A stretch of DNA of 64,000 bases, taken from positions 4,464,001-4,528,000 of the forward strand of contig NZ_CP042431.1 of the NCBI RefSeq assembly GCF_007970185.1, given 5' to 3'. Shown in pieces: positions 51,381-64,000 of this stretch (the stretch's first letter is position 1; every line of letters starts with the position of its first letter). Origin of the DNA: Pseudobacter ginsenosidimutans (GTDB lineage: Bacteria; Bacteroidota; Bacteroidia; Chitinophagales; Chitinophagaceae). The notes under the pieces are model-generated. The model ran no database searches, was not told the DNA's origin, and worked only from the letters and a program-made list of their open reading frames with translations. The position numbers were made by a program, and so were the translations under genes.

Positions 51381-52490
51381 TTAATTGACGTCTTTTCCTT
51401 CGTTGAGCATTTTTATCAATCGTTCTACATTGATCTTATTGCCATTGTCGGGCGACTGAGGTAATGCTTTGTTGGCGTATTCCAGGGCTTTTTTGTAATT
51501 GCCGAGAGCAGAGTAGCCTCTCGTAAGTCCCATATTAGTGGTAAAGGTATTGGGATGTTTATCATAGTTGAGCTTAAAAACGTCGAAGGCTTCCTGGTTT
51601 TTCTTTTGCGCTAACAGTTGTCTTGCATAGTTGTGAACCTCTGCGGGAGTACCCAGCGTCAACGCGTCTTTCATGATGGCCTTTGCTTCATCCTGCTTGT
51701 TGAGTTTGGAGAGAAGCTGCGCTTTGGTGCTTAGGTTCCTGAAATTCTTTTCGCCAATGAATGCGCCATTGATGGAATGATCCGCCCATGTAAGCGCCTC
51801 TTCCAGATTGGTATTGTGCATCAGACAGAAATTAGCTGCCTGGTTGAAACTCTGCCATCCCGGATTGAAACTTTTCTCTCCTCTCAGTTCTTTTCTGAAA
51901 GAAGCTATTTGAAGGTTCACATAATCCGTTTCAATATGAATAGGGATGATGAGTTTTTCCCAGCTCAGTTCCAGGGTGGCACCGGTTTCAGTTTCGTTGG
52001 TGAACTGATACTGCAGCCATTCCACTTTTTTATCTGAAGGAACTGGTTTTACGGTTACGCGTAATGCATCTTCTTTCGGATCATAGAAGAAGCTGCCCCA
52101 GCTGGTATAATTCTTTGAAAAGATAACAGTGCTTTCATTGGGATCATAGGCGATGAAAAGTGCATATTTTCCGGCAGGAAGATTTTGTCCTTCCACTTTT
52201 ACATCTGTAGAGAATTCTATTACTGTGTTTTCATTGGCGCCTGCCCGCCAGGGTGCGGATTTGCTGGTGCCGAAACCGAGATCTGCAAAACCTTTGTGCA
52301 CCAGTCCACCCCAGATCTGCCCGTCTCTTCCTTTTACTGCGGGACGATCATAGTGAATGGTTACATCAGTGATTCCGATCTGTTCTCCCACCATGGCTTT
52401 TTTGTTTCCGCCATCGGGTGACGTTGTGAGCTGGGCAATAGAAGTGGAGGCACACAGCAAGGCTGTGCAAGCAAGTATTGGTATTCTCAT
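51381..52490 (-). CDS. DUF2911 protein with TPR-like C-terminal half
   Basis: 369 residues with a signal peptide (1-19, TSIA|Q). Residues 25-190 are the DUF2911 domain: VTIHYDRPAVKGRDGQIWGGLV, PWRAGANENTVIEFSTDVKVEGQNLPAGKYALF, SKNYTSWGSFFYDPKEDALRV. Residues 215-365 are helical repeats with TPR character (LEEALTWADHSINGAFIGEKNFRNLSTKAQLLSKLNKQDEAKAIM; FDVFKLNYDKHPNTFTTNMGLTRGYSALGNYKKALEYANKAL). Secreted or periplasmic; the family is common in Bacteroidota but no function is established. Monocistronic with a strong terminator. Confidence 0.88.
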   Translation of the reverse strand: MRIPILACTALLCASTSIAQLTTSPDGGNKKAMVGEQIGITDVTIHYDRPAVKGRDGQIWGGLVHKGFADLGFGTSKSAPWRAGANENTVIEFSTDVKVEGQNLPAGKYALFIAYDPNESTVIFSKNYTSWGSFFYDPKEDALRVTVKPVPSDKKVEWLQYQFTNETETGATLELSWEKLIIPIHIETDYVNLQIASFRKELRGEKSFNPGWQSFNQAANFCLMHNTNLEEALTWADHSINGAFIGEKNFRNLSTKAQLLSKLNKQDEAKAIMKDALTLGTPAEVHNYARQLLAQKKNQEAFDVFKLNYDKHPNTFTTNMGLTRGYSALGNYKKALEYANKALPQSPDNGNKINVERLIKMLNEGKDVN

Positions 52491-52722
52491 TGTATACAGT
52501 TTTAGTACCTACAAGCTAATAAATAGACATGGTAATAAAACTGAATATTCTACCGGACAGGAAAAAAGAATGGATGAAAGGCAGTAATAAAGGGATGATT
52601 TGATGGCGGCTGAATCCCTTTCTGGGAGCGGGTTTGAGGAGCTTTGGAGATCAGTGGTGATTTGTAACCTTTCAACTGTTGGCGTATGTATACAAACAAC
52701 GGGTTTCGGTGTAAAAGTGAAA

Positions 52723-52744
52723 GGACGCTCTTTTGAAGAGCGCC
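52723..52744 (-). terminator. Terminator downstream of the tandem lipoprotein genes
   Basis: GGACGCTCTT pairs with AAGAGCGCC (one mismatch) around TTG, followed on the minus strand by CTTTCACTTTT. It lies 35 bp past the stop at 52779. Confidence 0.75.
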
Positions 52745-52778
52745 CTTTTCGGTAGATCACTGTATAACCGTCCTTGAA

Positions 52779-53354
52779 TTATTTTGCTATCCAGATCTCG
52801 AACTGGATATTGGTATTAACGTTGTTGATTGTCAGTATCTGGATCAGTCCGGTCAGTTTTCCATCCTGGCTCCGGAATGCATAGGTTGCATCTTTCTGAA
52901 TTGGGGTGATGCTTTTTTGCTCATTGGTGCCTTTCTTCCAGTTGTCCAGGATCAGTTGTACCGGGAAGCCATCTTTGTATTGGTCACGGTATTGCTGCAT
53001 TTGATTGCTGGTGATGGTTGTTTTCCGGAAGCTAATGGGAAGGCGTGTTGTCCAGTTTCCCTGTTCAGTTGGTTTAGGGAAATTATCAGGACTGAACAGT
53101 CCGTATGTGTCGGCATGATTATAGTATCCGAATACAATGCTTTCCTGGTATTCTGAATCACCGATGAGGCTTTTGGAACTGAGTCCATCCATTGCTTTGA
53201 TGGAATACCAGTTGGTGTTTTTATCGCCATCAACCTGATTGTATTCCAGATATCCTTCTGCATTACTGACGGTTGTTGGAACAAATTCACCCTTGTCCTT
53301 TTTGCAGGCGCTGAGCGCCAGCAGCACAATTGCAAATGATATTATCTTTTTCAT
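52779..53354 (-). CDS. Putative lipoprotein, paralogue A (unknown family)
   Basis: 191 residues. MKKIISFAIVLLALSACKKDKGE is a lipoprotein signal with Cys17. The mature part is a compact mainly beta domain with no family I recognise; recognisable segments are NTNWYSIKAM, ESIVFGYYNHAD, GLFSPDNFPKP, NWTTRLPISFRKT, ATYAFRSQDGKLTGLIQI and the end FEIWIAK. It shares its length and these segments with the gene 70 bp upstream (paralogue B), so the pair arose by tandem duplication and is probably one transcript. The proteins sit back to back with a sigma/FecR/SusCD/ABC unit, which suggests, but does not show, a link. Confidence 0.75.
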   Translation of the reverse strand: MKKIISFAIVLLALSACKKDKGEFVPTTVSNAEGYLEYNQVDGDKNTNWYSIKAMDGLSSKSLIGDSEYQESIVFGYYNHADTYGLFSPDNFPKPTEQGNWTTRLPISFRKTTITSNQMQQYRDQYKDGFPVQLILDNWKKGTNEQKSITPIQKDATYAFRSQDGKLTGLIQILTINNVNTNIQFEIWIAK

Positions 53355-53424
53355 TTTTCTTTTTTATGATAGAGTAGGTATTATTGAGGTTTCTGTATTG
53401 AGCATACAAGTGCTATCCTTATTA

Positions 53425-54000
53425 TTATTTTGCAATCCAGATCACAAACCCGATGCTGGTGAAAAAACTATTCACACTTGTGATCATCATCAGAGCAGTC
53501 AGTTTACCGTCGTTGCTGCGAAAAGCATAGGTTTCTCCTTCCTGGGGGTGAGTGATATAATTGCGTTCGTTATAACCTTTCTTCCATTCCTCTACAATCA
53601 GTTGCGGAGGAAGTTTTTCCTGGTATTGGTCAGCCCATTCCTGCATCTGAACTATCGTGAGATTGGTCTTCCTGAATTTAATGGAAAGCCTGGTTTGCCA
53701 GTTTTCCTGACCGTACATTTTGGGAAAGTTATCAGGACTATAAATTCCGTATTCATCGCCCTTGTTGTAAAACCCGAAAACAATATTTTTCTGTATGTCT
53801 GCACTCTTGCTGATGTTTGGCAAGCTCAATCCAATCATTTCGCTTGCAGAGTACCAGTTGGTGTTGTTGGGCGTATTGGCTTCCTGGTAATACAGGGTTC
53901 CCGATCCATTTTCAACTGTAGTTGGATTGTATTCAGCTTTTTCTTTCTTACAGGAATGGAGTGTAATCAGCACTATGGCGAATGATAATATCTTTTTCAT
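53425..54000 (-). CDS. Putative lipoprotein, paralogue B (unknown family)
   Basis: 191 residues from the ATG at 54000 (MKKILSFAIVLITLHSCKKEKAE, lipobox Cys17); a longer frame to 54048 would hide the signal. Parallel to paralogue A in length and landmarks: NTNWYSASEM, KNIVFGFYNKGD, GIYSPDNFPKM, NWQTRLSIKFRKT, ETYAFRSNDGKLTALMMI and FVIWIAK. Roughly half the positions look identical by eye. Function unknown. It is the first gene of the pair. Confidence 0.75.
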   Translation of the reverse strand: MKKILSFAIVLITLHSCKKEKAEYNPTTVENGSGTLYYQEANTPNNTNWYSASEMIGLSLPNISKSADIQKNIVFGFYNKGDEYGIYSPDNFPKMYGQENWQTRLSIKFRKTNLTIVQMQEWADQYQEKLPPQLIVEEWKKGYNERNYITHPQEGETYAFRSNDGKLTALMMITSVNSFFTSIGFVIWIAK

Positions 54001-54052
54001 TTTTCTTTTTTTAGAATCGAATGAGATTGGTTGTGGTTTCAGGAACAAAGAT

Positions 54053-54097
54053 GGGGAGAGGAAGCGGGAGGGGGAAGGGCCACTTAACGGATGGGGG
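54053..54097 (+). other. Purine-rich G-run tract, possible G-quadruplex
   Basis: On the plus strand runs GGGG, GGG, GGGGG, GGG and GGGGG occur within 45 bases (loops of 9, 1, 2 and 13 bases). The tract is in the 252-bp gap between the lipoprotein genes (minus) and the sigma gene (plus). Formation of a quadruplex is only a possibility. Confidence 0.35.
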
Positions 54098-54252
54098 AGT
54101 TTGGTTAATGGATGTGCAAAGCAAATCAGTCATTATTTCCAGGTAGTCTCTTTAGTCAGTGCAATCCCCAGAAAGAATTCCAGTCATGCTTTTAATCCCT
54201 ATTTAGATATTTTTTGATAGTTTGCAGCATTGAAATATCAATGGCTTACTGA

Positions 54253-54852
54253 TTGGTTACCGTTAACCCATATGAAGAAAAGGAACTGCTGAACCGTATT
54301 GCCGGTGGGGATGAGCAGGCATTCGAAATAATACTAAAGCAGTATTACCCCAAACTGCGCCCCTTCATTTATAAATATACTTCTTCATCCGGCGATATGG
54401 AAGAAGTGCTGCAGAACTGTTTTCTGCGCGTTTGGATCAACAGGGATAAATTACCATCCATAATTCATTTCAGTGCCTGGATCTATAAGGTTGCTTCCAG
54501 GGAGTATTTACTTTACCTGCGACAAAAGATGAAAGAAAAGCAGCAGATTTCATTGGAGCTGGCGGAAAGCCTGGCCGATAAAGTTGTGGGCAATCCTGAG
54601 GAGATGGTGCAGTTCCGGCAAGTGAAAGCCGCTCTCAGGGAAGCTGTAGAACTGTTGCCCGAACAAAGGAAGAAGATTTTCAAAATGAGCCGTGATGAAG
54701 GGATGAAGATCGCCGAGATCGCAGCTGCTCTTTCCGTTTCCACCAGCACAGTGAAAAACGCGCTCACTACAGCCTTGAAGCAGATCAGGGAATACCTACT
54801 TGCCAGAGGCTATCATATTCCCCTTATTCTTCTGAGCATTATGCTCGCCTGA
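54253..54852 (+). CDS. ECF-type RNA polymerase sigma factor
   Basis: 199 residues starting with TTG at 54253. An in-frame ATG at 54241 is followed within three codons by TGA, and no other ATG comes before region 2, so the TTG is the best start. Region 2 (LLNRIAGGDEQAFEIILKQYYPKLRPFIYKYTSS to LQNCFLRVWINRDKL) and region 4 (LPEQRKKIFKMSRDEGMKIAEIAAALSVSTSTVKNALTTALKQIREYL) are intact. FecI-like ECF type; it is in line with FecR, SusC and SusD, the normal order of such cassettes. The C-terminus has a short hydrophobic tail (IPLILLSIMLA). Confidence 0.93.
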   Translation: MVTVNPYEEKELLNRIAGGDEQAFEIILKQYYPKLRPFIYKYTSSSGDMEEVLQNCFLRVWINRDKLPSIIHFSAWIYKVASREYLLYLRQKMKEKQQISLELAESLADKVVGNPEEMVQFRQVKAALREAVELLPEQRKKIFKMSRDEGMKIAEIAAALSVSTSTVKNALTTALKQIREYLLARGYHIPLILLSIMLA

Positions 54853-54907
54853 AAATTTTTTTTTGTTCAGGATAGTACTGTTTCCCAATTTTTGTTTCTT
54901 ATCAGTT

Positions 54908-56089
54908 ATGGCTGAGCAACGAATACAATACTTATTGAAAAGATTCCTGCAACAAGAGCTGGATGAAGCCGGCTTGAAGGAATTGAAAGCAATGACCGAT
55001 CCTGCGAAGGAAGAAGCGATGCTTGAACAGATGGCCTCAATGATGGAAATGGAGCCAGGTGATACCGGAAATGATGAAGAGATGGCCAGGGTACTGAAAA
55101 ATGTGTTGAATGCTGACCGTGACGTTACAATTCCGGTGGTACGCAGGATTGGCTGGAAGCGCCGACTCGCCTGGGTAGCAGCTGCATCACTGGTGTTGTT
55201 TGCCAGTGCATATTGGTGGTTATCCGATGAAAAACAGATGCCTCCCCGGGAGCTTTCCGATTCACGTTCCGGCATTCAGCCGGGGCGCGATGGAGCTATC
55301 CTCACCCTGGCAGACGGTTCTCAGGTAATCCTCGATACGGTACGAAATGGTACTGTTACAACGCAGGGAGGCGCCAGGGCCATGATAGAAAACGGCATAT
55401 TGAAATATGATGGTTCAGGGAATGAGCTTGTTTACAATACAATTACTACACCGAAAGGAAGACAATACCAGGTTGTATTACCGGATGCCACTATTGTGTG
55501 GCTGAATGCGGGTAGCTCCCTGCGGTTCCCTGCTGCATTCACCGGAGCAGATCGGTCAGTACAGTTGACTGGCGAAGCATTTTTTGAAGTTGCAAAGAAC
55601 GAACAGAAGCCATTCAGGGTATCCATCCCCGGTAGAATGGAGATTGAAGTGTTGGGTACAACTTTCAATGTGCAGGCATACACTAATGAAGAAAGCATCG
55701 ATGCCACCCTGATAAGTGGAGCAGTAAGTGTGAAAGTCACCAAACAAAGTCTTGTGTTGAAGCCAGGACAGCAGGCGCAGAACCGACAGGATAAAACCGT
55801 TACTGGTTCGCTCCGGCTGGTTCAACAGGTGGATACTCAAAAAGTACTGGCATGGAGAACGGGGAAATTCAATTTTGAAAATACCCGGCTCGTAGAGGTG
55901 ATGCGTCAACTGGAACGCTGGTATGATATTGAAGTTGTTTACGAAAATGGAACACCTGATATAACACTCATGGGTAAACTTTCCAGGGATATTCCGCTGA
56001 AAGAATTATTGCCGGGACTAGAAGAATTAGGCGTACATGCCCGGCTTGAAGGAAGAAAGCTGATCATAATGGCTTCCACTAACCATTAA
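54908..56089 (+). CDS. FecR-family anti-sigma factor
   Basis: 393 residues from the ATG at 54908; an upstream TTG would add an unlikely hydrophobic leader. N-terminal sigma-binding part 1-80 (RIQYLLKRFLQQELDEAGLKELKAM), membrane helix about 86-104 (LAWVAAASLVLFASAYWWL), then the FecR domain (ILTLADGSQVILDTVRNGTV, GRQYQVVLPDATIVWLNAGSSLRFPAAFTGADRSVQLTGEAFFEV, IEVLGTTFNVQAYT, LISGAVSVKV, LKPGQQAQ) and a C-terminal DUF4974-type tail (NTRLVEVMRQLERWYDIEVVY). It retains the sigma factor until SusC signals. 55 bp after the sigma gene. Confidence 0.95.
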   Translation: MAEQRIQYLLKRFLQQELDEAGLKELKAMTDPAKEEAMLEQMASMMEMEPGDTGNDEEMARVLKNVLNADRDVTIPVVRRIGWKRRLAWVAAASLVLFASAYWWLSDEKQMPPRELSDSRSGIQPGRDGAILTLADGSQVILDTVRNGTVTTQGGARAMIENGILKYDGSGNELVYNTITTPKGRQYQVVLPDATIVWLNAGSSLRFPAAFTGADRSVQLTGEAFFEVAKNEQKPFRVSIPGRMEIEVLGTTFNVQAYTNEESIDATLISGAVSVKVTKQSLVLKPGQQAQNRQDKTVTGSLRLVQQVDTQKVLAWRTGKFNFENTRLVEVMRQLERWYDIEVVYENGTPDITLMGKLSRDIPLKELLPGLEELGVHARLEGRKLIIMASTNH

Positions 56090-56095
56090 ACCACG

Positions 56096-56205
56096 CTTTG
56101 ATAGTTCATCAAAGTGTTACTCCCAGGGCAAATACTGCCCGTTTTAAACCGATCCTTTTCAAATACCGCTATAAACAAAACCGCCACGATTGGAGCCGTG
56201 GCGGT
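56096..56205 (+). promoter_or_regulatory. Three hairpins between fecR and susC
   Basis: CTTTGAT/ATCAAAG (56096-56114), GGGCA/TGCCC followed by GTTTT (56126-56145, a weak terminator form) and ACCGCCACG/CGTGGCGGT (56180-56205, 9-bp perfect stem). Together they form a structured 5' leader of the SusC gene, like the leader at 37803-37947, and could set the ratio of FecR to SusC. Confidence 0.45.
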
Positions 56206-56270
56206 CAACGATGTAGTTGGTAAAATGGCTTGACAACCGATTTTATTCATCAACCAATCTTTGCAAAATT

Positions 56271-59200
56271 ATGCAAAAAAACTGCTATTGGCCATATCCG
56301 TATGCGGAAAGGCTTGCGCCTGACCCTCCGCATTGGAAAAGGGCCATCCACCAAACTTTCAGGGTTATGAGACTGACCACTTTATTTTTGATCCTGGGCT
56401 TCCTGCAGATTCAGGCTTCCGGTATCGCTCAAAAAGTTTCCATCGAGGGAAAAGACCTCAGCCTGAAACAGGTTTTCAATGCAATCGAATCACAGACAGG
56501 ATATGTAGTTCTTTACAATAAGGAGCTGGTGTTGAATGCGAAAAAAGTATCACTGTCGGTGAAGGATGTTTCCGTATCTGCCGTTCTCGAACTTGTACTG
56601 AAAGGCCAGGAAATAAAATTTGTGATCAGAGGTATGACTGTTTTCCTTTCTTCAAAACCAGATCCCGGAAAAAGGGTACCTGAATTGGATTTCACCGGAC
56701 TGTTGAATGCGCCGCCAGTCCGGATCCTGGTAATAGATACTGCCGGGAATCCATTGGCGGGCGCTTCGGTAACGATCAAAAAAAGCGGGAAGTCCGGGAT
56801 AACGGATGCCACTGGTACCATCCGGTTGAATGTTGTTGCCGGTGATCTGTTGCTGGTTTCGTTTGTAGGATATGAAGACACACATTTTTCCATCAGTCAG
56901 TCTGCCATCGATCAGGATGGGCAGGACCCGTCACACGCGCTGAAGGTCGTTTTGAAACCTTCTGTTTCCAGGCTGGAAGAAGTGGAAGTGACTGTGAACA
57001 CCGGTTTCCAGAAATTGCCGAAAGACCGGGCTACAGGCTCTTTTGTATTGATCAATAATGAAACCCTGAACAGGAGTGTGGGATCAAATATACTCGACCG
57101 GCTGGATGGTGTAACCAGTGGACTTAACTTCAACAAGAATGTAGTTGGCAGTTCTGGCACGGGTGGACTCAGTATCAGGGGAAGAAGCACCATTTTCGCC
57201 AATGCTGTTCCGCTTATCATCCTCGATAATTTTCCCTATGAAGGAGATATCGCAAACATCAATCCCAATGATATCCTTTCGGTTACCGTACTGAAAGATG
57301 CGGCTGCAGCATCCATTTGGGGAGTGAAAGCGGGTAATGGCGTTATCGTAATCACCACTAAAAAAGGACAGGCGTCACAAATGCCAAGAATAAGTGTGAA
57401 CGCCAATCTTACCGTATCCGAAAAACCCGGTCTGTTTTACGGGCCCCAATTGACTTCAAGTCAATGGATCGATCATGAGATATTCCTTTACCACAAAGGC
57501 CGTTACTCGCAGCAAATTGCCAATGGCTATAGCGCACTCAGCCCGGTGTTGGATATTCTGGAAGACAGGAAGTATAACAGGATCTCTGCAGGTGATTCTG
57601 CATTGGCCATCGATGCGCTCAGGCAATATGACGTAAGGAATGATCTCAAAAAGTATGTTTATCGTCGTGCATTGAATCAGCAATATGCCGTGAATGTGAG
57701 CGGAGGAGGAACGAATAACCGTTATTATGCTTCTGTAGGATATGATAAGAATATGGGAAACAGGAAATCGCTCAGCTATGACCGGCTGACCCTGAACGCA
57801 AACAATACATATCTCTTCCTGAATAACAAAGTGGAATGGAATACCGGAATTATTTTCTCCAACAGCAAAAGTTATGATCACAACAACGTGTATGTGAATC
57901 CCAATTCCCCTTATATCAGACTGGCCGACGAGCAGGGGAATGCGCTGCCGGTAGCAGATAATTTGAGGAGATCATTCACAGACACCGCCGGCGCGGGATT
58001 ATTGCTCGACTGGCGTTTTTTCCCTTTGAATGAATTAACACCCACCCAGGAAACAATACTCACGGATTACCGGGTAAATACCAGCATTTCTGCTCAATTA
58101 TGGAAGCCGCTAAAAGTGAGCGCTTATTTCCTTCACCAGAAAGGAATCAGCAATTACACGAAGAACAATTCAATTGAATCTTATTATACCCGTAACATGA
58201 TCAACCAGTATTCGATCATCGATTATGTTGCGCATACGATCCAGCGGCCAATCCCGATAGGCGCTATCATAGATAAGAGTATCAGCACGAAGACCATGAC
58301 CACTGGCCGTTTACAAATGGATTTTCACCAAATGCTCAACAACATACATGAGCTGAATTTTCTCGCCGGTATGGAGATCAGGGAGAGCAAGGCTGATGAA
58401 GAAACAAAGAAATTGTATGGATATGATCCGGAAATTACAGGCGCTTCCAACGGGACTATGGACTTTAGTAAGATCTATAAGTATTCTTATGGAACAGGAC
58501 AGGGGAGAATTCAGGAAGGAACGAATACATCCTGGATGCTCGACAGGAACCGTTCTTATTATACCAATTTTTCTTACTCCCTTCTCTCGAAATATATCCT
58601 TTCCGGCAGCGCCCGCTGGGATGAATCGAATCTATTCGGAGTGAAAGCCAACCAGAAAGGCGTTCCGCTCTGGTCTGCAGGTTTATTATGGAATATCCAC
58701 CAGGAATTGTTCTACAAATTTGATCTGATACCAATGTTGAAGGCCCGTATTACTTATGGTTACAATGGCAATGTAGACAAAAGTGTTACAGCTTTGCTGA
58801 CTGCACAGGCCATCACAGGCGCATTCAATACTTTCAATCAGCCCTATATGAATATTTCCAATCCGCCTAACCCATCACTCCGCTGGGAAAAAGTTGGTGT
58901 GACTAACCTGGGGATCGATTTCGGTTTCAAAAATCAGGTTGTTACCGGATCCATCGAATATTATCTGAAGAATAGTACCGATCTCATTGCAAATAATGTT
59001 GTGGCGCCACAACTTGGCTTCGATAAACTAAAAACCAATTCTGCCAACCTGCGTACGCAGGGGGTGGATCTGGTTTTGAATGTTCAAATGATGAAAAGAG
59101 TGGTGAACTGGGATACCAAATTGCTTCTTAGTTTTTCGAAAGACAAAGTGACTTCCTACAAGATCAAGCAGGGTAATAATTACGACATCATCACAGGCAA

Positions 59201-59852
59201 CTACCTGAACCCGCTGGAAGGTTATTCATTTTATGGGATGTTCAGTTTTCCCTACGCAGGCCTTAATAGCAGCGGTGATCCTGTGGGATACCTGGATGGA
59301 AAGGAAACCACGGACTATATCGGGATCTGGCGTTCTTCCAATACAGCCAATATCGTGTATAACGGAACGATGATGCCAGTATATTATGGCAGTTTGCTGA
59401 ACAGCTTCCGATACAGGAATTTCTCCCTTTCTTTCAATATAACTTATAAGCTGGGGCATTATTTCAGAAGGAGATCATTCAGCTCTTCCTCACTCAACTC
59501 AAGCTACAGGCAAGCCGACTATGATCTGCGCTGGCAGAAGCCCGGAGATGAACTTTGGACAAATGTGCCGGCTTATGTTTATCCCGATGTTTCGGGCCGC
59601 GAAGTTTTGTACACAAATTCAACTGCACTGGCTGAGCGGGCAGACCATATACGCCTGCAGGATATTCGCTTCAGCTATGCAATGGACCGGAAACAGGTCT
59701 CGGGCTTCCCTTTTGCCAGGATCGATGTATTTGCATATGCCAGCAATCTTGGCTTATTGTGGCGGAAGAACAAGCATGGCCTGGACCCAGAAGGCTCCCT
59801 GAATTACGTGACGCCGATAAGCATCAGTTTAGGAATCAAAGCAGACCTCTAA
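56271..59852 (+). CDS. SusC/RagA-type transporter with STN signalling domain
   Basis: 1193 residues from the ATG at 56271; the start of the membrane-targeting part, MRLTTLFLILGFLQIQASGIAQ, is preceded by 32 residues (MQKNCYWPYPYAERLAPD...) as often seen in STN-type SusC proteins of Chitinophagaceae. A start at 56367 is possible. STN domain (VSIEGKDLSLKQVFNAIESQTGYVVLYNKE), carboxypeptidase-like domain with VRILVIDTAGNPLAGASVTIKKSG, TonB box EEVEVTVNTGF, plug with LSIRGRSTIFANAVPLIILDNFPYEG and a barrel ending SLGIKADL. It is the receptor of the second sigma/FecR unit and overlaps SusD by one base. Confidence 0.95.
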   Translation: MQKNCYWPYPYAERLAPDPPHWKRAIHQTFRVMRLTTLFLILGFLQIQASGIAQKVSIEGKDLSLKQVFNAIESQTGYVVLYNKELVLNAKKVSLSVKDVSVSAVLELVLKGQEIKFVIRGMTVFLSSKPDPGKRVPELDFTGLLNAPPVRILVIDTAGNPLAGASVTIKKSGKSGITDATGTIRLNVVAGDLLLVSFVGYEDTHFSISQSAIDQDGQDPSHALKVVLKPSVSRLEEVEVTVNTGFQKLPKDRATGSFVLINNETLNRSVGSNILDRLDGVTSGLNFNKNVVGSSGTGGLSIRGRSTIFANAVPLIILDNFPYEGDIANINPNDILSVTVLKDAAAASIWGVKAGNGVIVITTKKGQASQMPRISVNANLTVSEKPGLFYGPQLTSSQWIDHEIFLYHKGRYSQQIANGYSALSPVLDILEDRKYNRISAGDSALAIDALRQYDVRNDLKKYVYRRALNQQYAVNVSGGGTNNRYYASVGYDKNMGNRKSLSYDRLTLNANNTYLFLNNKVEWNTGIIFSNSKSYDHNNVYVNPNSPYIRLADEQGNALPVADNLRRSFTDTAGAGLLLDWRFFPLNELTPTQETILTDYRVNTSISAQLWKPLKVSAYFLHQKGISNYTKNNSIESYYTRNMINQYSIIDYVAHTIQRPIPIGAIIDKSISTKTMTTGRLQMDFHQMLNNIHELNFLAGMEIRESKADEETKKLYGYDPEITGASNGTMDFSKIYKYSYGTGQGRIQEGTNTSWMLDRNRSYYTNFSYSLLSKYILSGSARWDESNLFGVKANQKGVPLWSAGLLWNIHQELFYKFDLIPMLKARITYGYNGNVDKSVTALLTAQAITGAFNTFNQPYMNISNPPNPSLRWEKVGVTNLGIDFGFKNQVVTGSIEYYLKNSTDLIANNVVAPQLGFDKLKTNSANLRTQGVDLVLNVQMMKRVVNWDTKLLLSFSKDKVTSYKIKQGNNYDIITGNYLNPLEGYSFYGMFSFPYAGLNSSGDPVGYLDGKETTDYIGIWRSSNTANIVYNGTMMPVYYGSLLNSFRYRNFSLSFNITYKLGHYFRRRSFSSSSLNSSYRQADYDLRWQKPGDELWTNVPAYVYPDVSGREVLYTNSTALAERADHIRLQDIRFSYAMDRKQVSGFPFARIDVFAYASNLGLLWRKNKHGLDPEGSLNYVTPISISLGIKADL

Positions 59853-61252
59853 TGAAAATGAATTCAATCATGAAATCCAGCATAAACATCTTTGCAATAC
59901 TTCTGCTGATATTGACTACCTCATGCGGAAAGGGTTTCCTGGAGAAGAAACCCAACTCAAGTATCGTTATTCCATCTACCCTCAGCGATTTTCAGCAATT
60001 ATTAAATTCCTCGTCAGTAAACAGGTCGTCCATTCTTCCGGCAGTGTCGGCCGATGAATATTACATGGTTTCGCAGGAAGCCCTGGATGCAAGCACACCG
60101 ATTGAGCGGAATGCTTATGTGTGGAATAAGGATATCTATGGTGAAGAAACCCGGATTGCCTTCTGGAACAATTCCTATCAATCGGTATTCATCGCAAACA
60201 GTGTACTGGCGCAACTTCCGGGAGTTCCGCCTCAGCAACAGCATACAGAAGCGTACAACAATGTTGAAGGACAGGCTTATTTTGTCAGGGCATTTGCTTA
60301 CTTCGATTTGCTGAAAAGTTTCTCGGCGCCTTATGATGCAGCAACAGCATCAGCCGATCGCGGCGTTCCGCTGAAACTTTCACCCAATATCGATGAAACT
60401 CAGCCCAGATCTTCCGTTCAGGCTTCTTACGATCTGGTGATCGGAGATTTGTTGAAAGCCGCCTCATTACTGCCTCCCAAGGTGCAGCCTACTGTCAGGA
60501 ATCAGGCCAGTAAAGCAGCGGCATATGCGCTGTTTGCGAGATTGTACATCAGCATGCGTAAATATGAACAGGCTGAATTGTATGCAGACAGTTGCCTGAA
60601 CCTTTACGATACTTTGGTTGATTACAATACAGTAAGTCAAACATCCAACAATCCATTCACCAATACCGTTGCCGAATCGATCTTTTTCAGTTTCGTAAAT
60701 ACACAGCCTGCCGTTATCGGGCTGCACAATAATTCTGTGCTGATGAGTATCGATACTGTATTGCTCGATTTTTACGCTCCTTATGACCTGAGAAGGAAAA
60801 TAATGTACAATACGGATCCTGCCACGAAGTTGACAAAAACAAAAACTTTCTATTCGAATTCAGGCCATCCTTACGGCGGTCTCGCCACAGATGAAATATA
60901 TTTGATCAAGGCAGAATGCGCTGCCAGAGCCGGCAATAAAACTATTGCACTTCAATATCTCAATGACCTCCTGGTCACCCGGTTTGCCACCGGGTTCTTC
61001 ACTCCTCTGGGTGCTGCGGATGCATCCGAAGCATTGCAATTGGTGCTGAAAGAAAGAAGGAAAGAGCTGGTATGGCGTGCGGGGCTGCGATGGGATGACC
61101 TTCGCCGTCTCAACAAAGAGGGGGCAGGCATTACACTCAAAAGAATTATCGGTGGACAAACTTATACCCTTCCTCCCAATGATCCCCGCTATGTTTTTCC
61201 AATCCCTGACGATGAAATAACGCTTGGCGGAATTGAACAAAATATAAGATAA
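59852..61252 (+). CDS. SusD/RagB-family lipoprotein
   Basis: 466 residues from the ATG inside the SusC stop (TAATG at 59850-59854). Lipoprotein signal ends at LILTTSC, followed by GKGFLEKKPNSSIVIPSTLSDFQQLLNSS, then helical repeats AYNNVEGQAYFVRAFAYFDLLKSFSAPY, IYLIKAECAARAGN and VLKERRKELVWRAGLRWDDLRRLNKEG. It is shorter than the other SusD proteins here. With SusC it forms the cassette that heads the ABC genes downstream. Confidence 0.93.
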   Translation: MKMNSIMKSSINIFAILLLILTTSCGKGFLEKKPNSSIVIPSTLSDFQQLLNSSSVNRSSILPAVSADEYYMVSQEALDASTPIERNAYVWNKDIYGEETRIAFWNNSYQSVFIANSVLAQLPGVPPQQQHTEAYNNVEGQAYFVRAFAYFDLLKSFSAPYDAATASADRGVPLKLSPNIDETQPRSSVQASYDLVIGDLLKAASLLPPKVQPTVRNQASKAAAYALFARLYISMRKYEQAELYADSCLNLYDTLVDYNTVSQTSNNPFTNTVAESIFFSFVNTQPAVIGLHNNSVLMSIDTVLLDFYAPYDLRRKIMYNTDPATKLTKTKTFYSNSGHPYGGLATDEIYLIKAECAARAGNKTIALQYLNDLLVTRFATGFFTPLGAADASEALQLVLKERRKELVWRAGLRWDDLRRLNKEGAGITLKRIIGGQTYTLPPNDPRYVFPIPDDEITLGGIEQNIR

Positions 61253-61340
61253 ACGATCCGGACAGGTTGCTTTTATGAACCACATTGCCAGTGGTAATGC
61301 CGGAGGCTTGCCTGTTTGTTGAATACAAATTGAATAAATC

Positions 61341-62291
61341 ATGAATTCATCTATCGTAAAGGTGCAGCACCTTTCACACCGTTATGCCATTCAATGGGCC
61401 ATCAAAGACATCAATTTCGAATTGAGCAGGGGCGGCGTATATGGTCTGCTGGGCGCCAATGGCGCAGGCAAATCTACCATCATGAATATTCTTTGTGGCG
61501 TGCTTCGCGCATCACATGGAGATGTGTTCATTCGTGGCGTCAACATCAGGAAACAGCCGCTGGAAGCGAAGAGATTTATTGGTTTCCTTCCGCAGCATCC
61601 GCCGGTGCTGGGTGATCTGACCGTGGAAGAGTACCTCCGCCACAGCGCACATATCAGGCTAATGCCTGCCGATTCTGTGAAGGATGCCACCAATGAAGTG
61701 ATGGAGAAGGTAGCGGTTACGCATTTCCGAAAGAGACTGATCAAAAATCTTTCCGGCGGTTTTCAACAACGCGTTGGTATTGCACAGGCCATCATCCATA
61801 AACCGGACCTTGTGGTGTTTGATGAACCTACCAATGGCCTCGATCCAAACCAGATACTGGAAGTACGAAAACTGATCAAAGAAATAGCAGAAGAAAGAAC
61901 AGTGCTTTTGTCTACACATATCCTGCAGGAAGTACAGGCCCTCTGTGATCATGTCTGGATGGTGAATGAAGGCCGCTTCGTTTTTGCAGGTTCAATGCAG
62001 GAATTCGACAATCAAATTCAGCCGAGTTCCATCATCATCAGTTTAATGAACCCGCCATCCCTGCAACGTATTGCCAGCCTGGAAGGCGTAGTAAAAGTGG
62101 AACAACTTGCTCCGCAGCGATTTCGACTGTTGTTCAACGATCCCACCCGTGTAATGGACGCAGTGGTAAGTCAGAGCAATACACAGGGCTGGCGGCTGAC
62201 GGAGCTGCAAATGGAAAAGAACTCGCTTGAAAATATTTTTGCTTCCCTCTCAGGAAAGACTATTGAACAGGAAGGAGCAACAAATTCATAA
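61341..62291 (+). CDS. ABC transporter ATP-binding protein (GldA-like)
   Basis: 316 residues. Walker A GANGAGKST (38-46), Q-loop in FIGFLPQHPPVLGDLTVEEYL, signature LSGGFQQRVGIAQAI, Walker B LVVFDEPTNGLDPNQ and H-loop TVLLSTHIL are complete. The C-terminal part resembles the ATPases of ABC-2 exporters and of GldA in gliding. It is 18 bp before the permease gene, its partner. An ABC exporter beside a SusCD import pair is unusual; the two may move related peptides, or the operon may just be adjacent. No gliding-motility genes other than GldF/G-like ones occur here. Confidence 0.93.
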   Translation: MNSSIVKVQHLSHRYAIQWAIKDINFELSRGGVYGLLGANGAGKSTIMNILCGVLRASHGDVFIRGVNIRKQPLEAKRFIGFLPQHPPVLGDLTVEEYLRHSAHIRLMPADSVKDATNEVMEKVAVTHFRKRLIKNLSGGFQQRVGIAQAIIHKPDLVVFDEPTNGLDPNQILEVRKLIKEIAEERTVLLSTHILQEVQALCDHVWMVNEGRFVFAGSMQEFDNQIQPSSIIISLMNPPSLQRIASLEGVVKVEQLAPQRFRLLFNDPTRVMDAVVSQSNTQGWRLTELQMEKNSLENIFASLSGKTIEQEGATNS

Positions 62292-62309
62292 TCCCCATAG
62301 AAAAAGATC

Positions 62310-64000
62310 ATGAAAACAACATGCTATTTAGCCAGAACAGAGATACAGAAATTATTTTATTCACCAGTGCCCTGGTTGGTACTGGTTATCTATTGCTTCC
62401 AGTCTTCACTCATTTTTACTGGTATATGGTCCCAGCTCCTCAAGAACCTTTCGCTTGGGTATGATACCAGCGCCATTACACTCAGGAATTTCTCGGATGA
62501 AATGCGAGGCGGTGCTTTTCAGAAAATATCGAATTACCTCTATCTCTATATTCCGCTCATTACAATGGGGATCATGAGCCGTGATATCAGTTCTGGTTCC
62601 ATCAAACAATTGTACTCTTCCCCCATAACCAACTGGCAGATCATCATGGGAAAATACCTGGCGCTGCTGGTATTCTGCCTGGCCATTACCGCAGTAACAG
62701 GGATCTTTTGCCTGTATGCATTCTATAGTATCGAAAATGTGGAGGTGGGGCTGGTATTAACGGGATTGCTGGGCATGTTCCTGCTGATGTGTGCTTATTG
62801 CGCAATCGGCTTGTTCATGTCTTCACTGACCTCATATTCAGTGGTGGCTGCCATGCTTACCCTGGGCATATTGTTCATACTGAACAATGTTGGCACTGTA
62901 GGATTGGACTATGCCATTGTCAGGGATATCACTTATTGGTTATCGTTAGGAGCGAAATCAACCTATTTTATCTTTGGCCTGATCTCTTCGAAGAACCTGC
63001 TTTACTTTTTACTTGTTTCCGGCATGTTCCTCGGCTTCACTTATATCAAACTGAGTTCCGCCAGGCAGTCTGCCACAAAGATGGGTAACTTTTTGAAGTA
63101 CCTGGCCGTATTCCTGGGAGCCAGCCTTACAGGCGTTATTTCGTCCCTGCCATCCATGCAGTTCTATTTGGATACCACCAGGTCGAAGATCAATACCCTC
63201 AGTAAGGCAAGCCAGGAAGTGCTCTCGTCATTAGATGAACAGCTTACAGTGTATACCTATTCAAATATGCTCGATAAAGGGAGTAATGCACACCTTGCTT
63301 TACCCAAATACGTGAATTACGATTTCGACCGCTTCGCAAATTATGTACGGTTCAAACCCGATACCAAAATAGAATATGAATATTATTATCACAAGACAGA
63401 CAATGAGCACCTGGAAAAACAATATCCATTTCTGACAGATGAAGAAAGACTGGAGAAGCTGAAGGAGATCAATGACTGGAATTTCAAAATAATACCCTTT
63501 GCATCTCTTCAGCATAAGGCAGACCTGTCTTCTGAAAATTACCGATTTGTGCGTATGCTGGAAACCAGGTCAGGGAAACGCAGCTTTCTGAGAGTTTTCG
63601 ACGATAATTGGGTGCTGCCATTTGAATCTGAGATCACAGCCGCTATCAAAGGTTTGGTAACCACGCTGCCGACTATTGGCTTTGTTTCAGGACATGGAGA
63701 ACGCGACAGCAGGAATGAGTTCGACAGGGGTTACAACAGGATAGCAGAAGAGAAAGCTTTTCGTTATTCATTCATCAACCAGGGATTTTATTTTGCAGAT
63801 GTTTCACTGGGGAACGCTGTTCCCGACAGTATTTCGATTTTGATCATTGCCGAACCAAGGTCTCCCCTGAGCGATACCGATAGAAAGCACCTGGACGAAT
63901 ACATCGCACGTGGAGGCAATCTGCTGATTTGCGGCGAACCGGACCAGGTGGAATGGTTGAATCCCCTCACCGGTTCACTGGGTGTTGAATTTTTGAAAGG
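62310..64000 (+). CDS. ABC-2 permease fused to a GldG-like auxiliary domain, C-terminus outside window
   Basis: Open to the window edge with 563 residues visible. Residues 1-245 are an ABC-2 permease of GldF type, with six hydrophobic segments (VPWLVLVIYCFQSSLIFTGI, YLYLYIPLITMGI, ALLVFCLAITAVTGIFCLYAFY, GLVLTGLLGMFLLMCAYCAI, VVAAMLTLGILFILN and LLYFLLVSGMFLGFTYI) and the motif SRDISSGSIKQLYSSPITNWQIIMGKYLAL. A seventh hydrophobic segment near 262-280 begins the GldG-like extracellular part, with ITAAIKGLVTTLPTIGFVSGHGERD and ISILIIAEPRSPLSDTDRKHLDEYIARGGNLLICGEPD, typical of the GldG/auxiliary ABC family. In most gliding bacteria GldF and GldG are separate genes, so this is a fusion. It pairs with the ATPase upstream; the end is beyond the window. 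Confidence 0.85.
   Translation, partial: MKTTCYLARTEIQKLFYSPVPWLVLVIYCFQSSLIFTGIWSQLLKNLSLGYDTSAITLRNFSDEMRGGAFQKISNYLYLYIPLITMGIMSRDISSGSIKQLYSSPITNWQIIMGKYLALLVFCLAITAVTGIFCLYAFYSIENVEVGLVLTGLLGMFLLMCAYCAIGLFMSSLTSYSVVAAMLTLGILFILNNVGTVGLDYAIVRDITYWLSLGAKSTYFIFGLISSKNLLYFLLVSGMFLGFTYIKLSSARQSATKMGNFLKYLAVFLGASLTGVISSLPSMQFYLDTTRSKINTLSKASQEVLSSLDEQLTVYTYSNMLDKGSNAHLALPKYVNYDFDRFANYVRFKPDTKIEYEYYYHKTDNEHLEKQYPFLTDEERLEKLKEINDWNFKIIPFASLQHKADLSSENYRFVRMLETRSGKRSFLRVFDDNWVLPFESEITAAIKGLVTTLPTIGFVSGHGERDSRNEFDRGYNRIAEEKAFRYSFINQGFYFADVSLGNAVPDSISILIIAEPRSPLSDTDRKHLDEYIARGGNLLICGEPDQVEWLNPLTGSLGVEFLK

Follow-up and report, generated by a model that had tools for sequence, protein, structure and literature searches.

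A SusCD-type import operon of Pseudobacter ginsenosidimutans with a fused ABC permease and a short MutS-like pair, and its recurrence across the genome

Analysis of a 64,000-base stretch of Pseudobacter ginsenosidimutans DNA (the window; bases 4464001–4528000 of the single-contig 7.8 Mb genome) identified, at its downstream end, a run of genes for an extracytoplasmic function (ECF) sigma factor, a FecR-type transducer, a SusC/SusD outer-membrane import pair and an ATP-binding cassette (ABC) system whose permease is fused to a GldG-like domain (hereafter PermG). Judged from sequence, the import pair and the ABC genes are one unit. We read this unit as one of ~55 paralogous, self-inducing outer-membrane import operons, likely for oligopeptides, that are coupled to an ABC machine and a MutS-derived partner, a reading on which our own judgement is evenly balanced. 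The most unusual part of the operon, a pair of short MutS-like proteins, lies beyond the window edge. The genes of the operon are given below (coordinates past 64000 are extended window coordinates, with gene ends completed from the genome).

54253–54852, + strand: ECF sigma factor, 199 residues from a listed TTG start (Pfam Sigma70_r2 and r4_2)
54908–56089, + strand: FecR-type anti-sigma factor/transducer, 393 residues from ATG (PF04773 FecR, PF16344 FecR_C)
56271–59852, + strand: SusC-type TonB-dependent transporter with an N-terminal STN domain, 1193 residues (TIGR04056, TIGR04057, PF07660)
59852–61252, + strand: SusD-type surface lipoprotein, 466 residues (PF14322 SusD-like_3, PF07980 SusD_RagB)
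61341–62291, + strand: GldA-like ABC ATPase, 316 residues (PF00005, 2.1e-31)
62310–64613 (in the window to 64000), + strand: PermG, a GldF/NosY-like ABC-2 permease fused to a GldG/GIFT domain predicted to be periplasmic, 767 residues
64634–65956, beyond the window: thioredoxin-like (Trx-like) lipoprotein, 440 residues, with a lipobox and a CPGC motif in the translation
65989–67344, beyond the window: MutS-a, short MutS-like protein, 451 residues
67341–68618, beyond the window: MutS-b, short MutS-like protein, 425 residues

A preliminary description of this DNA had placed the sigma, FecR, SusC, SusD, ABC ATPase and fusion genes in one direction, and all of these elements were confirmed by reading frames and family models. 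The gaps it gave between SusD and ATPase and between ATPase and permease are exactly 88 and 18 bp, and permease and GldG-like domain are indeed one protein, with ABC2_membrane_2 (residues 7–194) and ABC_transp_aux (GldG/GIFT; residues 454–689) on a single chain. It had also proposed reading past position 64000 for further genes, which yielded the rest of the fusion, the Trx-like lipoprotein, MutS-a and MutS-b. The SusC protein scored above cut-off for TIGR04056 (448.9 bits) and for the TIGR04057 signature, while the sigma factor fell marginally below the TIGR02985 cut-off (125.2 against 126.4 bits). The FecR open frame starts at 54863, the start of SusD overlaps the end of SusC (59852) and its translation has a lipobox-like N terminus, and the two MutS genes overlap by 4 bp.

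A profile of the fusion detected ~85 PermG copies in the genome, and a short-MutS profile ~110 copies. Together these form 62 clusters. PermG and MutS occur together in 55 of them, arranged as P-M-M, P-P-M-M or P-M-M-P (P, PermG; M, MutS). Grouping the genes of all clusters by sequence gave a near-universal cassette order: sigma–FecR–SusC–SusD–(lipoprotein)–ATPase–PermG–(PermG)–MutS–MutS. Among the 55 cassettes, SusD was assigned upstream in 54, SusC in 52 and FecR in 47; this linkage to SusCD was not built in, since the clusters were selected without using SusC or SusD. Because the same order recurs ~55 times in the genome, it goes far beyond chance. Core gaps between common neighbours have medians of 9 to 40 bp, and the cassettes total ~800 kb, or 10.3% of the chromosome; the genome as a whole carries at least 150 SusC signatures (150 candidates scored). 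In several copies PermG or MutS is split into two frames (clusters 4348406–4355781, 4759235–4766544, 6898457–6903576 and others), the pattern that frequent birth and decay of family members would produce. Where a cassette has the Lp8 lipoprotein (L049:9120-9827 and ~9 similar), a second sigma-70-like protein often stands between lipoprotein and ATPase. A PermG tree placed own-genome copies in a 66-row clade, which makes no claim for a lineage-specific burst, as the named loci in the tree were those that best matched a model built from 12 cassettes; several copies were near-identical to those of Pseudoflavitalea rhizosphaerae.

More widely, the six genomes of the genus each carried the fusion, with between 5 and 86 matches, and it occurred in at least 12 of 101 genera sampled in the family and in at least 4 of 197 in the class, the last two counts being lower bounds because those searches scored between 2 and 4 candidates in each genome. 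Named genomes, when scanned, yielded 79 loci, from Pseudobacter, Pseudoflavitalea, Chitinophaga, Sphingobacterium, Pedobacter, Butyricimonas, Odoribacter, Alistipes, Sanguibacteroides and others. Across the 70 of these with enough upstream sequence, SusD stood in the same-strand run upstream of the ABC genes in 55 and MutS directly after PermG in 35. The survey of conserved neighbourhoods that had been suggested for this locus therefore shows the SusC–SusD–ABC order recurring across Bacteroidota.

Within the window operon, no terminator-like site was found on the + strand in the SusD–ATPase, ATPase–permease, permease–Trx or Trx–MutS gaps, and a search of 52001–64000 on the + strand for a classical Bacteroidetes promoter (TTG-N17-23-TAnnTTTG) found none. 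Counts of sigma-70-type promoters and of terminator-like sites were the same as in shuffled sequence. The preliminary description had held that a promoter and terminator dividing SusD from the ABC genes, with no conserved linkage in relatives, would refute its proposal; instead, the gaps around the ATPase are free of terminator-like sites and the linkage holds in 54/55 cassettes and 55/70 named loci. Separately, a strong 11-bp hairpin lies in the FecR–SusC gap (56179–56206), with a T-run on the minus strand only.

The ATPase carries Walker A, LSGG signature, Walker B and H-loop motifs. A structure was modelled for L104, a PermG relative 51% identical to the window protein, with a mean predicted local distance difference test score (pLDDT) of 90 and a predicted template modelling score (pTM) of 0.85. 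The L104 model comprises six helices, one further transmembrane helix, a large domain at residues ~280–720 and a final transmembrane helix, a topology that would place the GldG part in the periplasm. Among solved structures, the membrane part came closest in fold to NosY of NosDFY (Z 20.6, 231 residues, 3.0 Å), whose counterpart for the periplasmic part was IFT52 (Z 23.5), along with OST48 (Z ~21). The cassette thus shares a NosY-like membrane fold with NosDFY but differs in the partner, which is a fused GIFT domain and not NosD; among the families assigned in the 55 own and 79 named loci there was no NosD partner and no copper or N2O reductase gene. With the GldA–GldFG gliding system it shares the ATPase, ABC-2 permease and GIFT-domain protein families, whereas permease and GldG are one chain in the cassette. 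Membership of that system was rejected on curated NCBIfam cut-offs (GldA, TIGR03522, 288.2 vs 402.6 bits, GldF 77.9 vs 288.5, GldG 22.6 vs 389.85). A separate gldF/gldG-like pair is found in the genome at 994.7–996.2 kb.

These features bear on the possibility that the sensed ligand induces an exporter of a peptide, a signal or a toxic compound, in the manner of lantibiotic-protection or drug pumps. ABC-2 type permeases are mostly exporters; the cassette ATPase also matches drrA and lantibiotic-protection models, below cut-off, and the membrane part also resembles the ABCG and PmtCD exporters, at lower Z. However, the best fold match, NosY, is a non-classical ABC, the permease is fused to a large periplasmic domain, and the accessory genes encode peptidases and thioredoxins. 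Furthermore, the gene orders showed no recognisable gene for a precursor peptide, a periplasmic adaptor or a TolC-type protein, in a search that covered open reading frames of 100 residues and above. We consider export unlikely. The earlier suggestion that the ligand is moved out is left without support, as the predicted permease fold is NosY-like and such a fold does not fix the direction of transport.

Comparison across cassettes gave median pairwise identities of 65% for the ATPase, 60–62% for MutS, 40% for PermG and 24–25% for SusC/SusD. Distance matrices were strongly correlated within pairs (SusC–SusD 0.93, MutS-a–MutS-b 0.94, PermG–ATPase 0.88) and also between modules (PermG–MutS 0.70, PermG–SusD 0.51); in a permutation test, the values for PermG–ATPase, PermG–MutS and PermG–SusD were reached in 0 of 500 permutations.

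The two MutS-like proteins of the window operon contain the MutS_V ATPase domain (PF00488; 4.7e-28 and 2.3e-28). Among 43 short or fused MutS sequences scanned, domain V was present in 43 and domain III in 42, and domains I, II and IV in none; Walker A (GANMAGKST) and Walker B (FDELFRGT or FDELFKGT) motifs were conserved. A model of the fused relative L121 (pLDDT 88) matched the folds of MSH2, MutS and MutS2. The pair has MutS domains III and V with ATPase motifs in common with the MutS, MSH2, MutS2 and KamC ATPases, but it differs in lacking domains I, II and IV and in consisting of two short paralogues, adjacent or fused. Identity as a mismatch-repair MutS was rejected (137.8 and 139.1 of 480 bits; the missing domains are those of mismatch recognition and the DNA clamp), as was identity as a KamC reactivase (NF052383, 123.9 and 106.2 of 300 bits), and both proteins also fell below the MutS2 cut-off. 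MutS–MutS fusions, which argue for a heterodimer, occur in seven named loci and in two cassettes of this genome, where the open frames are 900 and 874 residues long. PermG without MutS is common and MutS pairs without PermG are nearly absent, and this nested occurrence is the main argument that MutS serves the cassette ABC. The MutS-like pair probably works with this ABC and not in mismatch repair. A distant single-copy short MutS (around 2722662, minus strand), away from SusCD genes, adjoins a gene that we take, from the look of its sequence, to be dihydroorotase-like; the same arrangement of neighbours occurs in several genera of the family.

Alternatively, the ABC–MutS block could be a module of its own, with a housekeeping, defence or DNA-related role, and stand beside SusCD only through block duplication. 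The SusCD–PermG correlation (~0.5) is below the within-module values, 15 of the 70 named loci have no SusD upstream, and MutS families act on DNA. Nevertheless, in Chitinophagaceae, Sphingobacteriaceae and Odoribacteraceae alike the block follows SusD, the lipoproteins between them varying, and the mismatch-binding and clamp domains are absent from the MutS pair. A role in phage defence was rejected, with no PADLOC match for PermG, Trx or MutS and ABC ATPase matches only to generic ATPase parts of defence proteins. An independent module is therefore quite improbable.

The sensing part of the preliminary description is supported by the receptor family: 39 of 41 cassette SusCs carry an STN domain, and in the window operon sigma factor, FecR and an STN-bearing receptor are all present, the receptor having the SusC/RagA signature and an adjacent SusD. 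This is the set known from FecIRA-type signalling (ECF sigma factor, FecR and TonB-dependent transporter with STN), but here the transporter is a SusC/SusD pair and ABC and MutS genes are added. As had been noted at the outset, the window operon is without glycosidases, and none was found among the accessory proteins run against Pfam, one of which (L113) carries a carbohydrate-binding Cthe_2159 domain. Peptidases (M16, met-zincin DUF4953/DUF5117, S46, Mx1) occurred in 34/78 named operons, a descriptive share and not an enrichment, and thioredoxin-like or redoxin genes were also among the accessory genes. In RagAB of P. gingivalis and Bt2261-64 of B. thetaiotaomicron, which bind oligopeptides (PMC7782687), SusC/SusD likewise come without glycosidases and with peptide-type accessory genes and surface lipoproteins (the latter in other copies of the cassette), whereas the cassette is set apart by encoding its own ABC machine and a MutS pair within the operon. 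Sequence and profile comparisons gave no homology between the DUF4843 (Lp10) and PKD (PKD9) lipoproteins and the solved Bt2262/Bt2261. The ligand is most likely an oligopeptide; the earlier proposal of a peptide thus gains indirect support from the peptidases. Import of a metallophore, a cofactor or a modified peptide (RiPP-like, that is, resembling ribosomally synthesised and post-translationally modified peptides), with a NosY-like machine releasing or inserting metal as NosDFY serves copper insertion, would agree with NosY as the closest solved membrane fold, with thioredoxin-like partners and with ECF/FecR/STN control, which is classical for metallophore receptors (PMC11658791), but it is also quite improbable given that a common fold does not show function, that peptidases are frequent and that the accessory genes searched with Pfam included no recognisable metal-binding, reductase or siderophore gene.

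The analysis shows which genes the cassettes contain, that their order is conserved and that they are inherited jointly, along with the folds predicted for related proteins and the MutS domains that are missing. The substrate, the signalling and what the ABC and MutS proteins do are inferred, as follows, for a self-inducing oligopeptide import operon. SusD, or other surface lipoproteins in other copies, would capture the ligand, most likely an oligopeptide, and SusC would import it with TonB energy, as in its family. By analogy with FecA/FecR systems (PMC11658791), loaded SusC would signal through its STN domain to FecR and so activate the operon's own ECF sigma factor. At the inner membrane, the GldA-like ATPase and PermG may spend ATP on imported cargo or on periplasmic handling proteins, by mechanotransmission or by moving cargo across the membrane, while operon peptidases and thioredoxins would process the cargo. 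In about half of the named loci, a cytoplasmic short MutS pair would be an ATP-driven partner of the ABC. Tentatively, as a possibility short of a probability, we propose a MutS-derived heterodimeric ATPase that has moved out of DNA repair and is now a cytoplasmic motor or regulator of an inner-membrane GIFT-domain ABC serving TonB-dependent SusCD import, amplified to ~55 separately regulated and differently specific copies in one genome.

Several points weigh against this account. No peptidase lies in the window operon itself, and for GIFT domains, named from GldG and IFT52, sugar binding has been proposed (PMC7226087). Distances of FecR do not track those of PermG (correlation 0.08, with 71 of 500 permutations) and those of the sigma factor barely do (0.18, with 20 of 500), and the regulators may therefore not be specific to their own cassette. 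Whole-block duplication alone also yields correlations such as those between the other components, which thus represent joint inheritance and not contact; by sequence distance, the pattern fits a conserved machine with diversified receptors and exchangeable regulators. MutS is not required for the ABC as such, because half of the named loci are without it. Finally, the window copy is imperfect: MutS-b ends early, with its conserved C-terminal tail (ADRHGMMILKNER..., DRHGM...) in another frame at ~68590–68680, a frameshift that is either a real lesion or a sequencing error.

On either side of the operon, two paralogous small lipoproteins of ~191 residues (52779–53354 and 53425–54048, minus strand; no Pfam match) lie divergently upstream of the sigma factor, and a separate sigma/FecR/SusC/SusD/redoxin unit lies downstream of MutS-b.

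The open-access literature searched contained no description of this gene set. Each component family is known, and what is new is the combination, the copy number and the MutS pair. Little is known about what happens past the outer membrane to ligands that non-glycan SusCD systems deliver, and the cassettes provide a concrete, testable gene set: a dedicated ABC whose MutS-like partner recurs, present in Chitinophagaceae, Sphingobacteriaceae and gut Odoribacteraceae. The finding is also relevant to GldFG-type ABC systems, whose role is unsolved, and, if true, would be an example of MutS ATPases active outside DNA repair.

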